From IMG/VR virus record IMGVR_UViG_3300025674_000188, positions 1 through 33,461 of that record: a stretch of 33,461 bases of DNA. The stretch is one strand, 5' to 3'. The position numbers and the translations under genes were made by a program. The stretch is from a virus. Below are positions 120 to 7,115 of the stretch, one piece after another. The notes under the pieces are model-generated. The model did no database searches, was not told the DNA's origin, and saw only the letters and a program-made list of their open reading frames with translations. The first letter of the stretch is position 1; every line of letters starts with the position of its first letter.

Positions 120-277
120 GCAAATTGTGACATCAAGCTAAGATTGATATGTAATTTATTGTAAAACGAGGTGGCCAAGTGAGTAAGATACTGCCGGTTT
201 TTTTGAAAACCAAAATAATTTTATAATTCTCTGGACTTACGTTACACGTCTCACGCGCCACACTCGTATATTATTGT

Positions 278-430
278 GCCCAAGGGTGGAATCGAACCAC
301 CAATTATGTCTTATCCTATTTACTACCTTCCTAGCACGCCAGATCAGTAGCGACAAGGCTCTATTTCTGTTCTGTTCCCGCAAGAACTTCCCACATTACC
401 ATAGATTTACTGTTCACCTTGTACTTGGGC
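278..430 (-). ncRNA. tRNA-like structured RNA, about 153 nt, type unknown
   Basis: Read on the minus strand, GCCCAAG (430-424) pairs perfectly with CTTGGGC (284-278). Directly before the latter is a perfect T-arm: GGTGG, loop TTCGATT, CCACC (301-285), with no gap between T-arm and acceptor strand, as in tRNA. The next base would be an A discriminator; CCA is not encoded. The interior is not a normal tRNA: ACAAGGU pairs with GCCUUGU (7 bp, one G-U), enclosing UCUAU/AUAGA and a GUUCU-UGCG-GGAAC hairpin; then GCUACU/GGUAGU forms a second arm. No D-arm or anticodon loop is recognisable, and no tmRNA tag frame. A promoter-like element ends at 433, so transcription could begin at or within a few bases of base 1. 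Alternatives: a tRNA carrying an insertion, or a phage att core derived from a host tRNA 3' end. Confidence 0.6.
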
Positions 431-432
431 TA

Positions 433-466
433 TATTTTATCTAAGACATGTACCGTAACCTTTACG
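433..466 (-). promoter_or_regulatory. Leftward early-type promoter for the tRNA-like RNA
   Basis: Minus strand CGTAAA (466-461), exactly 18 bases, AGATAAAATA (442-433). Four of six bases match the CACAAA box and nine of ten match the downstream box. It overlaps the 3' end of the zinc-finger gene. If GATAAA acts as the -10 box, the start site falls at about 430, the first base of the acceptor-like stem. Confidence 0.55.
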
Positions 467-652
467 ACGACTTGCCTTTGCTATTGCCGCAGAAACTGAC
501 TGCGACACTATTTGTATTGTATTACCTGTTTTATGGTTAGTTATTGGTGCTGAAGCTACGCGTTCGACGCTACTGCAACTAACACAAGTTTTGTACCCAT
601 ATTTTTGTCTGACTGGATGTACGGGTTCACCACATCTACAATAATTTACCAT
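437..652 (-). CDS. Small zinc-finger protein (DksA/TraR-like cysteine pattern)
   Basis: This 71-residue protein starts with a cysteine cluster: CRCGEPVHPVR, then about ten residues on, KTCVSC. The pattern C-x-C-G ... R ... C-x2-C resembles the zinc finger of DksA/TraR proteins, which act on RNA polymerase; whether this one does is inference. A KTGNT segment and a basic C-terminal stretch (ASRRKGYG) follow. The frame extends upstream to a TTG at 685, but those codons overlap the -10 box of the promoter at 674-707, so the ATG at 652, preceded by AAAACT, is chosen. It appears to be the only gene of its transcript before the RNA promoter at 433-466. I recall similar short proteins in marine phage genomes, all unnamed. 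Confidence 0.8.
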   Translation of the reverse strand: MVNYCRCGEPVHPVRQKYGYKTCVSCSSVERVASAPITNHKTGNTIQIVSQSVSAAIAKASRRKGYGTCLR

Positions 653-673
653 AGTTTTTATTTTATATTCAGT

Positions 674-707
674 TATATTATCCAAAGGTAATCGTTTTCG
701 ATTTGTG
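674..707 (-). promoter_or_regulatory. Leftward early promoter, copy upstream of the zinc-finger gene
   Basis: Minus strand CACAAA (707-702), 18 bases containing ACGATTAC, GGATAATATA (683-674). It begins directly after the stop codon of the DnaA-like gene and lies about 21 bases before the ATG at 652. It rules out the TTG start at 685. Confidence 0.75.
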
Positions 708-2954: not shown

Positions 2955-2975
2955 AGTATATATATTTTATTCAAT

Positions 2976-3009
2976 TATATTATCTGTAAGTGATTTAATT
3001 TAGTTTGTG
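2976..3009 (-). promoter_or_regulatory. Leftward early promoter for the 2954-1823 operon
   Basis: Minus strand CACAAA (3009-3004), 18 bases, AGATAATATA (2985-2976). The spacer lacks the ACGACTAC block of other copies but keeps a TCAC at its place. Confidence 0.72.
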
Positions 3010-3020
3010 AAAGTACAGAA

Positions 3021-3265: not shown

Positions 3266-3308
3266 AGTATTAAATTTAAGTTATTTATTTATTTAGTTTA
3301 TTTACAGT

Positions 3309-3342
3309 TATATTATCTATTAGTAGTCGTGTCTAATTTGTG
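3309..3342 (-). promoter_or_regulatory. Leftward early promoter for paralog A
   Basis: Minus strand CACAAA (3342-3337), 18 bases with ACGACTAC in the middle, AGATAATATA (3318-3309). It lies inside the 3' end of the 49-residue ORF, whose TAA stop is part of the -10 box. Confidence 0.78.
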
Positions 3343-3462
3343 TAACAGTTCTTCTAATTTGTGGGCCAATTCTTTTACTGCTTGTACTAGCGCTTCGTCT
3401 GTTACGTTGCCTTGTAAGTACTGGTTTAATTCGTCGATAGTTGCTATAATTTCTGATCGCAT
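3313..3462 (-). CDS. 49-residue acidic helical protein
   Basis: Starts MRSEIIATIDELNQYL and continues with heptad-like leucines (AVKELAHKLEELLHKLD), consistent with one or two amphipathic helices and possibly a coiled coil. ATG in the AAACT context, about 25 bases downstream of the promoter at 3488-3521. Its stop codon is shared with the -10 box of the next promoter, a compact arrangement. No family recognised. Confidence 0.65.
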   Translation of the reverse strand: MRSEIIATIDELNQYLQGNVTDEALVQAVKELAHKLEELLHKLDTTTNR

Positions 3463-3487
3463 AGTTTTAATATTTATTAGTTACGTT

Positions 3488-3521
3488 TATATTATCCGAA
3501 AGTAGTCGTATCTAGTTTGTG
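3488..3521 (-). promoter_or_regulatory. Leftward early promoter for the 49-aa gene
   Basis: Minus strand CACAAA (3521-3516), 18 bases with ACGACTAC, GGATAATATA (3497-3488). Confidence 0.78.
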
Positions 3522-3566
3522 CAAAAGTAGATAGTTCGTTTAGTGAATAATTTTAGTTGTGAGGTA

Positions 3567-3671: not shown

Positions 3672-3688
3672 ATCATTTTATTTACATT

Positions 3689-3722
3689 ATTATTATCTTG
3701 AAGTGGACTGATTAAGTTTGTG
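3689..3722 (-). promoter_or_regulatory. Leftward early promoter for the 34-aa ORF
   Basis: Minus strand CACAAA (3722-3717), 18 bases, AGATAATAAT (3698-3689). Upstream, five bases from CACAAA, is TGTATAGC, the same arrangement as at the promoter at 4022-4055. Confidence 0.72.
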
Positions 3723-3725
3723 CAG

Positions 3726-3761
3726 GTGCTATACACTTCGTGCTATACACCCGAAGGTGTA
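3726..3761. repeat. Tandem GTGCTATACAC repeat with adjoining hairpin
   Basis: The 11-mer GTGCTATACAC occurs at 3726-3736 and 3740-3750 (14-base period). The second copy runs into a 6-bp hairpin whose minus-strand form is TACACC-TTCG-GGTGTA (3746-3761). It lies between the gene ending at 3777 and the next promoter, so it may be an operator, a weak terminator, or both. Confidence 0.55.
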
Positions 3762-4346: not shown

Positions 4347-4382
4347 AGTTTAGAAATTTAGTTATTATTTATTTGTTACATA

Positions 4383-4416
4383 TATATTATCTAAAAAACT
4401 TCTAAACTAATTTGTG
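4383..4416 (-). promoter_or_regulatory. Leftward early promoter for paralog B
   Basis: Minus strand CACAAA (4416-4411), 18 bases, AGATAATATA (4392-4383). The rightmost copy of the family; its spacer lacks the ACGACTAC block. Confidence 0.74.
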
Positions 4417-4601
4417 TAACTTAGGGGGCCCATAAAATAAAAACGACTTTTGTAACCAGCTGAGTATCAGGTAGTTAGGGGGCTATACAATACCCCTATA
4501 TATCTAATACCTAAAATAGTGACACAAGCCTTATAAGTAGTATGAGTAACAGGCTATTGTCACCCTTTTTATGTTTACTAACTATGTGTAATAATCTTAC
4601 T
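4417..4601. promoter_or_regulatory. Divergent control region between early and late arms
   Basis: This gap separates the leftward and rightward arms. It holds a direct repeat TTAGGGGGC (4421-4429 and 4475-4483), a hairpin TAGGGG/CCCCTA (4476-4498), one GCTATACA octamer (4482-4489) and copy B of the 45-bp element. TTGTCA at 4557 with A+T-rich sequence downstream could be part of a rightward promoter, but I see no convincing match to the flavobacterial -7 consensus. An origin of replication is also possible here. Confidence 0.45.
4519..4563 (-). repeat. Duplicated 45-bp element, copy B
   Basis: Minus strand GTGACAAT-x-GCCT-x-TTACT ... CTTGTGTCAC, matching copy A (3617-3662) at both flanks but not in the middle. 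Read as protein it gives VTIACYSYYL then a stop, so it is either a decayed copy of the 34-residue ORF or, more likely given the conserved ends, a protein-binding dyad. Confidence 0.6.
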
Positions 4602-4891: not shown

Positions 4892-5083
4892 ATGCCTTAC
4901 GGAAAGAAAACAGGTTTCAAAATGTACGGAAAATCTCCGATGATGAAGCAAATGAAAAAACAAGGTCTAAAAGCTCTAGCTGCAGCAACCCCTGAATTAG
5001 AGTATGTAGGACCAATGAAAAAGAAAATGTGCAAGAAATGCGGATCACCAATGTGTATGTGTGGACCAAAACATAAAAAATAA
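4892..5083 (+). CDS. Small Lys/Met-rich protein with Cys cluster, 63 aa
   Basis: Begins MPYGKKTGFKMYGKS and ends with CKKCGSPMCMCGPKHKK: a C-x2-C-x4-C-x-C pattern likely to bind zinc. Strongly basic. Adjacent to and similar in style to the preceding basic protein; both may be packaged with DNA or bind nucleic acid. No named family recognised. Confidence 0.72.
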   Translation: MPYGKKTGFKMYGKSPMMKQMKKQGLKALAAATPELEYVGPMKKKMCKKCGSPMCMCGPKHKK

Positions 5084-5127
5084 CGGAAAGACCGTTAACC
5101 ACGTTATTAACCTAAAACCAAATTATT

Positions 5128-5433
5128 ATGACGTACCTATATTACCAGACCTCAACTAGAACAGTGGGAGGTCAACAACCAAAAGTTAGTGAGCAAACCA
5201 AGAAAGAGTGGGAGCATTTAGCTAACAAAGAAAACTGGAGAATAACCCAATTACCAAACGGTTACTACCAAACCGAAGTTTCTAATCCAGATGGTGAAAC
5301 ATGGCACGATGTTACACGTAGAGAAACGCTAGAAGGCGCAGAATCTGCAATTGACGGAAGCATTGAACATTTTACCAAAAAGTTAGAAGCTACCAAAGGA
5401 CCGAAAGTCGTTAAGACCTTCAAGAATGAGTAA
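5128..5433 (+). CDS. Hypothetical protein, 101 aa
   Basis: Begins MTYLYYQTSTRTVGGQQ and contains NKENWRITQLPNGYYQTEVSNPDGETW, suggesting a small beta-rich domain, followed by a helical Lys-rich tail. ATG preceded by AAATTATT. Its stop overlaps the start of the next membrane micro-ORF (ATGAGTAA), indicating coupling. Function unknown. Confidence 0.72.
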   Translation: MTYLYYQTSTRTVGGQQPKVSEQTKKEWEHLANKENWRITQLPNGYYQTEVSNPDGETWHDVTRRETLEGAESAIDGSIEHFTKKLEATKGPKVVKTFKNE

Positions 5434-5543: not shown

Positions 5544-7115
5544 ATGGAATATAATAACCCTAGTCTTCTTATCAAAGACTTAAACTTTGGTGAAGACGCA
5601 AAATCTAAAATTGGTGCAGGAGTTGAGAAACTAGCGAAGGCTGTCAAGTCAACCCTTGGAGCATCAGGCCAATGCGTGATCTATGAAGATGCGCGTGGCG
5701 TACCGGTAATCACAAAAGACGGTGTAACAGTAGCTGAATCTGTAGTCTTATATGATCCGGTAGAAAACATGGGAGCAACTTTAATCAAAGAAGCTGCCAA
5801 AAATACAGTGAGAGAAGCCGGTGACGGCACTACAACAGCAACTGTATTAGCCGAATCATTACTTAATGAAATAAATAAAGTCTTAGATAGCAACACAAGT
5901 ATTAGAGACATTAAATTAGGCGTAGATTCTGGCTTAAAAAAAATTAATGACTATTTAGATAAGGTAAAGATTGAAGTTACAGACGAAATGTTGTCTCATG
6001 TAGCCGCTATATCTTGTAATAATGATCAAGAACTTGGCGATATTATAGCCGAAGCTTATAAGAAGGTTGGTAAAGACGGCGTAGTGTTAATGGAAGAGTC
6101 TGAAACAGAAGAAACTTACGTAGATATTGTTGACGGTGTTCAATTAGCCGACTGTGGTTTAACATCACCACACTTCATTACTAATACTGACAAGCAGAAA
6201 TGTGAGCTAGAAAATCCTTTTGTATTAATATCTATGTCTGAAATACCAAACGTTCGTAAAATACAGACAATACTAGAGCATGTTATTAAGAAAAACCGAT
6301 CTTTACTAATTGTAGCGCCAGTTGCTCAGCAAGTAAAATCGGCGCTGCTAATGAATAAAGTAAAAGGTAACATTAAAATAAATATTATTAGTCTCCCTGG
6401 TTTTGGTAACACTAAAAAAGACACTTGTGAAGACTTAGCGATATTAACTGGCGCTAAAGTAATGAACGAAGAACTAGGTGATGACTTAGATCTTATAGAT
6501 ATTAATTGTTTAGGCGAGGTTGAATTTGCTGTTACAGATGACAAGACGACAGTTTTAACAACGCTAGAAGAATTAAATGAAGATATAGGTGATAGAATTA
6601 ATCAAGTTGTAAAAGCAATTAAAGATGAAAAGAATCCTTTTATTAAAACAAAACTGGAACAAAGATTGTCTATGTTATCAGGTAGTGTTGGAATTATTAA
6701 CGTTGGGGCAAACTCTAAGGTGGAGCTTAAAGAAAAGAAAGACAGGATCGAGGATGCTATTTACGCTACAAAAGCTGCGCTCAAAGAAGGGATAGTGCCA
6801 GGAGGTGGTATAGCCCTCCTTAACGCGTCTCAAAAAATTTCGACCGACTCCGTCGGCGAGGAGCTATTGCTAAGAGCTATAGAAGCACCATTCACAACTA
6901 TCATGCATAATGCTGGTCTAGATTTACAGACATCAGTTGATGAAGGTATGGGTATAGATGTAACAACAGGCAAATCAGTTAACATGATAGAAGAAGGTAT
7001 TATTGACCCGGTTCTAGTAACTAAGTCAGCACTTAAAAATGCAGTAAGTGTTGTTAAGACTATTGTTTCTGCAGATTGTGTAATATCAAATGCTAGAGCA
7101 GATGAAAGCAATTAA
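5544..7115 (+). CDS. groEL: GroEL-like chaperonin, 60 kDa class (Cpn60)
   Basis: 523 residues against about 548 in E. coli. ATP-site motifs are present: KDGVTVA (58-64), GDGTTTATVLA (93-103, holding the catalytic Asp equivalent) and, in the second equatorial part, RIEDAIYATKAALKEG with a GGG (420-422); Asp404 matches the hydrolysis Asp. The apical domain is more divergent: the segment that is GYLSPYF in E. coli reads GLTSPHF (205-211), so tyrosines of the substrate and cochaperonin groove are changed. The C-terminal Gly-Gly-Met tail is missing. Overall it looks intact and active. It lies directly before a GroES-like gene, overlapping it by 14 bases, at the head of the virion genes, so it probably folds phage structural proteins with its own cochaperonin. 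Confidence 0.96.
   Translation: MEYNNPSLLIKDLNFGEDAKSKIGAGVEKLAKAVKSTLGASGQCVIYEDARGVPVITKDGVTVAESVVLYDPVENMGATLIKEAAKNTVREAGDGTTTATVLAESLLNEINKVLDSNTSIRDIKLGVDSGLKKINDYLDKVKIEVTDEMLSHVAAISCNNDQELGDIIAEAYKKVGKDGVVLMEESETEETYVDIVDGVQLADCGLTSPHFITNTDKQKCELENPFVLISMSEIPNVRKIQTILEHVIKKNRSLLIVAPVAQQVKSALLMNKVKGNIKINIISLPGFGNTKKDTCEDLAILTGAKVMNEELGDDLDLIDINCLGEVEFAVTDDKTTVLTTLEELNEDIGDRINQVVKAIKDEKNPFIKTKLEQRLSMLSGSVGIINVGANSKVELKEKKDRIEDAIYATKAALKEGIVPGGGIALLNASQKISTDSVGEELLLRAIEAPFTTIMHNAGLDLQTSVDEGMGIDVTTGKSVNMIEEGIIDPVLVTKSALKNAVSVVKTIVSADCVISNARADESN

Follow-up and report, generated by a model that had tools for sequence, protein, structure and literature searches.

Genomic context of the RNA

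The window analysed here, a 33.5-kb linear virus record (33,461 nt), comes from a podovirus with GroEL and GroES genes of its own. The terminase of this phage shares 66% identity with that of MW202828, approximately 46% with those of the Flavobacterium "elemo" phages, and 32–41% with those of Cellulophaga, Maribacter and Tenacibaculum phages. From these relatives of the phage, we infer that the host belongs to the Bacteroidetes. The minus strand carries a 153-nt tRNA-ended RNA, here termed element A (278–430), which is co-oriented with the adjoining genes. Directly upstream is a gene for a small CxC...CxxC protein (437–685, minus strand; a possible zinc ribbon) that is kept in approximately 30 loci, and the site directly after its stop codon constitutes a slot for non-coding RNAs. 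An ORF with a DnaA C-terminal domain (708–1139; Pfam Bac_DnaA_C) also lies upstream of element A. To the left of the RNA, approximately 220 nt of further non-coding sequence are followed by an ORF truncated by the end of the record.

The preliminary description had placed a member of a repeated promoter family immediately beside the RNA, and this claim did not survive. The only candidate near the RNA is a −10-like GATAAAATATA, which overlaps the last codons and the stop of the ORF at 437–685 and is missing in three of the five other contigs that carry element A (L191, L194 and L190). A sigma-70-type scan, which does not cover Bacteroidetes promoters, found no site at this position. In L191, element A comes directly after another RNA with a T-arm, which suggests that it is processed out of a longer transcript. 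Elsewhere in the window, early genes are preceded by a repeated motif that resembles a promoter (CACAAA...GATAATATA on the minus strand), with copies at 663–714, 1798–1831, 2965–3016, 3298–3349, 3477–3528, 3678–3729 and 4372–4423.

Architecture of element A

The ends of element A are those of a tRNA. Its acceptor stem is a perfect 7-bp helix between GCCCAAG (424–430) and CTTGGGC (278–284), and the sequence GCCCAAG has no further site in the whole window. Contiguous with the acceptor is a T-arm (GGTGG-TTCGATT-CCACC, 285–301) with five base pairs and a T-loop consensus, so that element A shares with the tRNA family (RF00005) a 7-bp acceptor joined to a 5-bp T-arm with a TTCRA loop. This combination had been pointed out before, and it is present as described; 1,500 shuffles of the window yielded 19 perfect acceptors with a T-arm, a chance expectation of 0.013 per window. 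The tail, read from the sequence as A73-C74-A-A (274–277), supplies a discriminator and C74, and CCA is not encoded.

Between these ends, the position of the D-arm is taken by a long arm. It starts with the 5′ strand of helix P2 (ACAAGGU, 416–422), of which CAAGG/CCTTG is invariant in all copies; the outermost pair changes from A-U to G-C in L190 and is unpaired in L191. This strand is followed by a 10-nt bulge, GAACAGUAAA (406–415), which is identical across all six phage contigs, and by the 5′ strand of P3 with an internal loop, UCUAUGGUAAUGU (393–405), the same in all copies except for one U/A difference. The tip of the arm is a hairpin (366–392), with a UGCG loop in the window, and the returning strands of P3 and P2 form AUAGAGCCUUGU (353–364), in which AUAGAGCCUUG is invariant in all copies and the last base varies. 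A second arm is predicted in the anticodon-arm position (322–351), and a linker that differs in length and sequence between copies takes the variable-loop position (302–321). The minimum-free-energy fold (−44.2 kcal/mol; z-score −1.8, a modest value) contains the long arm as well as the second arm of 6 bp, in agreement with the preliminary description. Within these arms, only P2 and P3, which form the foot of the long arm, are invariant among the orthologs; the UGCG hairpin and the second arm vary, each ortholog having a different hairpin in these places.

Neither a D-arm nor an anticodon arm with a 7-nt anticodon loop was detected in element A by ARAGORN or Rfam or in its orthologs, which confirms the earlier reading, and no anticodon loop was recognised in the second arm of any ortholog. 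At normal stringency, ARAGORN made no call on element A with or without introns, and its calls at lowered thresholds were noise only. No match to a tRNA-like family was found in Rfam, even at an E-value of 5 for positions 1–1000 of the window. Gathering-level scans returned nothing for L110, L167, L191, L111, L141 and L096, and three ordinary tRNAs only for L190. The earlier suggestion of a reduced tmRNA is not supported, there being neither a tag reading frame nor an Rfam match.

Distant relatives share an invariant core

With the RNA as a query, blastn found nothing real in the phage collection or in the first terminase-selected relatives, and relatives were then sought by proteins and short patterns. 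A pattern with fixed acceptor and T-loop had no match, and the DnaA-domain protein as a query gained no relatives. Orthologs in the same slot as the window copy were found among GroEL-selected IMG/VR contigs (L110 and L167/L170), and a pattern built on the core added L191, L190 and L194. Element A is thus known from six phage contigs, the window and five others. Only three acceptor types among these copies are independent, and four of the contigs are near relatives. Its length is 158 nt in L110, 211 nt in L167, 196 nt in L191, 152 nt in L194/L204 and 224 nt in L190/L202. Scanning a collection of 84,980 genomes with the core pattern yielded no homolog; two core matches, in unrelated sequence of Acinetobacter and Sulfuricurvum that lacks the rest of the RNA, were chance hits, and part of the matches to a looser pattern in viruses were spurious.

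Outside the acceptor, a 38-nt 5′ block and a 12-nt 3′ block are nearly invariant, with CAAGGTGAACAGTAAATCTATGG(T/A)AATGT and AATAGAGCCTTG common to all copies. The full core, CAAGG-UGAACAGUAAAUCUAUGGWAAUGU ... AAUAGAGCCUUG inside a paired 7-bp terminal stem, is present in all six contigs. The phages of L190 and L194 have the same TerL and portal PHROG families, and the TerL of the window aligns to theirs in short patches only (approximately 20–32% identity; E = 1.6e-5 and 0.05). Despite these barely alignable terminases, the 5′ core is 97–100% identical to theirs over 29–31 nt. Comparison of the aligned copies shows that the approximately 50-nt core predicted in the D-arm position (P2, the 10-nt bulge, P3 and the internal loop) changes hardly at all across very distant phages. 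Such a core, in phages whose proteins are barely recognisable as related, suggests that a conserved partner exists.

Of the approximately 30 loci with the CxxC gene, the window, L110 and L167/L170 have element A in the slot, and the rest have other elements there. The copy of L191 lies in tandem behind its T-arm RNA and those of L194 and L190 lie in other neighbourhoods, and this difference in surroundings argues for action in trans. C74 is kept in every copy of element A, in the other tRNA-ended RNAs described below (element F and the minihelices), and in each of the 30 ordinary tRNAs of the phage lineage that were examined. This retention fits a tRNA-type 3′ maturation.

Covariation of the tRNA-like ends

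Covariation was scored on a trimmed core alignment (A3), which was made by hand around the proposed structure. The terminal stem occurs in three unrelated sequences, GCCCAAG/CTTGGGC, GGAAAGT/ACTTTCC (L194) and CTTCACT/AGTGAAG (L190), with pairing kept in each, and six of the seven acceptor pairs are changed on both sides. Across the alignment 99.2% of cells are paired, and the score of 0.404 compares with 0.103 for shuffled alignments and at most 0.154 for slid structures; none of 500 shuffles reached the observed value. In the T-arm, two pairs are changed on both sides, with compensation seen in L194. L190 retains a hairpin of 5 bp with a 7-nt loop on the acceptor and has lost the T-loop sequence, which indicates that the T-loop is not strictly required. 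Within this alignment, the data show selection for the acceptor stem and the T-arm position to stay base-paired as one unit. Because P2 and P3 show almost no variation, covariation is nearly uninformative about them; the support for these predicted helices comes from their conservation and pairing. A covariance model, R1, was built from five copies with L190 left out, and it found L190 at 50.2 bits (E = 1e-9); the window copy, a training sequence of R1, scores 161 bits. Matches below 23 bits, which have mainly a T-arm in common, were left uncounted.

The preliminary description had proposed that the phage RNA resembles a tRNA at its ends and lacks a decoding arm, a proposal now backed by homologs and covariation, and it had named a lack of conservation and covariation in relatives as grounds for rejection, a lack that the six contigs rule out. 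The same data bear on the view that the locus is a decayed tRNA, an attachment core, an intron-bearing tRNA or a product of chance. A T-arm with the 3′ end of an acceptor is what an integration site would leave, and relatives have ordinary tRNAs. However, the 5′ strand of the acceptor, 122 nt upstream, covaries with the 3′ strand, which an attachment core would not explain, and the group as a whole is at odds with the long-distance conservation and covariation, the invariant inner sequence and the chance expectation of 0.013 per shuffled window. No anticodon-stem halves are seen, and ARAGORN with introns at normal stringency finds no tRNA. We consider this group of explanations very improbable; the intron, tmRNA and attachment-site readings were set aside given the covarying 5′ strand, the missing tag frame and the silence of ARAGORN and Rfam.

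Covariation would also be produced by DNA cruciforms, and the DnaA-domain gene nearby could suggest hairpins of a replication origin or a packaging site. Against such a DNA-level element, the T-loop sequence, C74, the invariant U-G pair of P2 and the U-G pair in the T-arm of L194 are RNA-like features, and the copies of the window, L110 and L167 agree in their strand and in their order with respect to the upstream gene. This explanation, too, is given very little weight.

Exchange of hairpin cassettes

Each ortholog has its own long-arm tip and second arm, and BLAST showed several of the tips to be hairpin cassettes that are found in other RNA scaffolds as well. One of these scaffolds is a structured RNA that adjoins element A in the window, element B (166–267, minus strand), which has a closing stem of ACGAGUGUGG...CCACCUCGU and is without tRNA features. 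The cassette GGGGGATAGAGCGATTTAGTGGACCTC occurs in element A of L110 and element B of L111; ACCGCAACCCGGCYCACCGGAAATCGGT occurs in element A of L167 and in another element of L128 and L184; and GTATGAGGTTYTTAGCCCTCC occurs in element A of L191 and in element B of L128, L141 and L145. Element B itself has blocks of 22–28 bp that are 100% identical in many relatives, together with interchangeable tip cassettes common to element A. Different structured elements occupy the slot after the CxxC ORF in different relatives. Further elements, C, D and E, were seen in the element B region of relatives. Comparison of the predicted folds shows that the tips and the second arm of element A are exchangeable hairpins.

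Other tRNA-ended RNAs in the lineage

A second RNA in relatives, element F, combines an acceptor of AGCTAG/CTAGCT or AACTAG/CTAGTT with a T-arm. Relatives also contain minihelices of 39–40 nt, in which a 6-bp acceptor, a 10-nt linker of AA(U/C/A)GGUUnnn and a T-arm form the whole RNA, with no anticodon arm. Nine distinct minihelices were found (L093 665–704, L111 3206–3244, L118 434–473, L140 739–777, L141 3096–3135, L169 1606–1645, L173 2379–2417 and 1280–1318, and L182 3702–3741, minus strand), compared with none in 2.4 Mb of shuffled sequence. In their alignment, from which one unpaired base was trimmed in five rows, all cells are paired and 9 of 11 pairs are changed on both sides. The GGUU of the linker may stand for the D-loop G18-G19 that docks the T-loop. 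By eye, a possible H-type pseudoknot lies upstream of several minihelices (for example L140, L157 and L118).

Position relative to genes raises the possibility that element A acts in cis, its tRNA-like ends cutting or protecting the flanking early mRNAs as in tRNA punctuation. Element A begins 6 nt past the upstream stop codon, and the minihelices of relatives lie at or just after stop codons. Such a role would have no need of an invariant core of approximately 50 nt or of swapped cassettes, and the neighbours differ between phages; we regard it as improbable.

The main rival to a function of the core is a decoy or competitor, in which the activity would reside in the acceptor/T-arm minihelix. 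The minihelix would titrate an enzyme that handles tRNA, an elongation factor or a defence toxin directed at tRNA, and the inner arms of element A would serve to fill space. That the same lineage has minimal RNAs of acceptor and T-arm with only the 10-nt linker speaks for this possibility, as does the 62-nt version with an encoded CCA in N4-like coliphages. On the other hand, the inner core and not the ends is the best-conserved part of element A, the T-loop is lost in L190, and no toxin or factor is linked to the RNA. We therefore rate the decoy as unlikely, though less so than a role in cis.

Closer to ordinary tRNAs are two adjacent tRNA-like RNAs of MW202828 (MW202828.1), which match the Rfam tRNA model at 47 and 37 bits. 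The first (523–630; 107 nt) has an expanded anticodon arm and is called tRNA-Leu by ARAGORN with introns; the second (637–697; 60 nt) has a D-arm and is missing the anticodon arm. By their predicted structures, these RNAs are intermediates that link element A to tRNA. They resemble element A in that the acceptor and T-arm are kept and the anticodon arm is expanded or missing, and differ from it in that the D-arm is kept and the Rfam tRNA model recognises them.

Several other unusual RNAs were observed. Contig L203 (G036) contains a 390-nt RNA (4997–5386) that ARAGORN calls a tmRNA and whose tag is odd, a tRNA in which a 4-nt loop replaces the anticodon loop (5782–5852), and a tRNA-Ile with an insertion of approximately 70 nt in the variable region (6175–6318). 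In Tenacibaculum phage Gundel_1, an annotated tRNA-Tyr of 110 nt (40857–40966) holds two T-arms, the first of which occupies the place of the variable arm.

Proposed function

The homologs, the covariation, the retention of C74 and the conservation of the core together indicate a real, selected family of tRNA-ended, non-decoding RNAs that is not in Rfam. Viruses of Bacteroidetes appear to encode a small RNA with tRNA ends, an unchanging 50-nt core and interchangeable hairpins. Element A is probably a phage-encoded non-decoding RNA that is matured in the manner of a tRNA and whose core works in trans. In the mechanism that we propose, element A would be transcribed along with the early genes and excised at the acceptor stem by host RNase P and 3′ tRNA-processing enzymes. 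The addition of CCA, for which C74 is indirect support, and the tRNA-like fold would protect it. The invariant arm would be the working site and bind one conserved partner in trans, a host or phage protein or an RNA; a translation- or tRNA-handling factor is our first guess. The variable hairpins would act as peripheral stabilisers. The putative conserved partner of the core is worth fishing for, and the escape of this RNA from both tRNA finders and Rfam is a warning about material of this kind.

Comparison with known systems

Two bacterial RNAs combine tRNA-like parts with other functions. In tmRNA (ssrA), an acceptor and a T-arm close a larger RNA without an anticodon arm; element A is much shorter, has no tag reading frame and is matched by neither ARAGORN nor Rfam as such. 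YrlA, a bacterial Y RNA, contains a tRNA-like module within a non-decoding RNA, is permuted and has its ends in the Y stem, and it had no Rfam match at positions 1–1000 of the window. Literature searches on phage RNAs with an acceptor and T-arm turned up no account of the class of element A, and one on Cellulophaga phage RNAs returned nothing.

The closest structural counterpart is the species 1 RNA (rnaC) of T4, a tailed myovirus of enterobacteria, unlike the podovirus of the window. This RNA was described without a known function (PMC3014915), and it is transcribed, as a late RNA, according to northern analysis (PMC9697503). It is 139 nt long and lies in the tRNA region of T4. Like element A, it consists of an acceptor, a long arm, a second hairpin and a T-arm directly on the acceptor, with no D-arm or anticodon arm; its long arm begins with AGG/CCU and its T-arm loop is UUCGAAU. 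It differs in its core and in its imperfect acceptor-like stem, seven positions of CGAUUCG/CGUUUCG with two U-U oppositions. A search of the T4 sequence (L199) with R1 gave no match at rnaC, which thus has no detectable sequence homology to element A, and rnaC is also not in Rfam. The statement in the preliminary description that no described class has this plan is therefore wrong in this one respect, the layout. Homologs of rnaC (L220, L221 and L222) keep the layout, and in the homologs of Enterobacter and Citrobacter phages the T-arm and second hairpin covary.

A third group is found in N4-like phages, namely coliphages U1G, IME11 and Jura and Klebsiella phage KP8 (U1G, MZ394712.1, 56–121, L223; also L224, L225, L226 and L227). 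Their RNA shares with element A a 7-bp acceptor and a T-arm without a D-arm or anticodon arm, and has a short hairpin instead; unlike element A, it is 62–64 nt long, encodes CCA and has another sequence. It is unannotated in most records and labelled "tRNA-OTHER" or "tRNA-Undet" in two. In U1G, a second candidate of approximately 120 nt with an encoded CCA end follows the first RNA.

It is an evenly balanced proposition that Bacteroidetes podoviruses, T4-like phages and N4-like phages independently build non-decoding RNAs with payload arms on a tRNA chassis, as a class that has been overlooked because tRNA finders reject such RNAs. On this proposal, the acceptor/T-arm ends would provide maturation and stability and the payload arms would be exchangeable; in the lineage of the window, cassettes would be swapped between scaffolds and one invariant arm kept. 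Phage RNAs with tRNA ends and no anticodon would then pass from anecdote to a searchable class. The T4 species 1 RNA, an orphan for decades, gains a set of structural counterparts, and since the T4 and N4-like counterparts infect laboratory E. coli, the idea is testable now.
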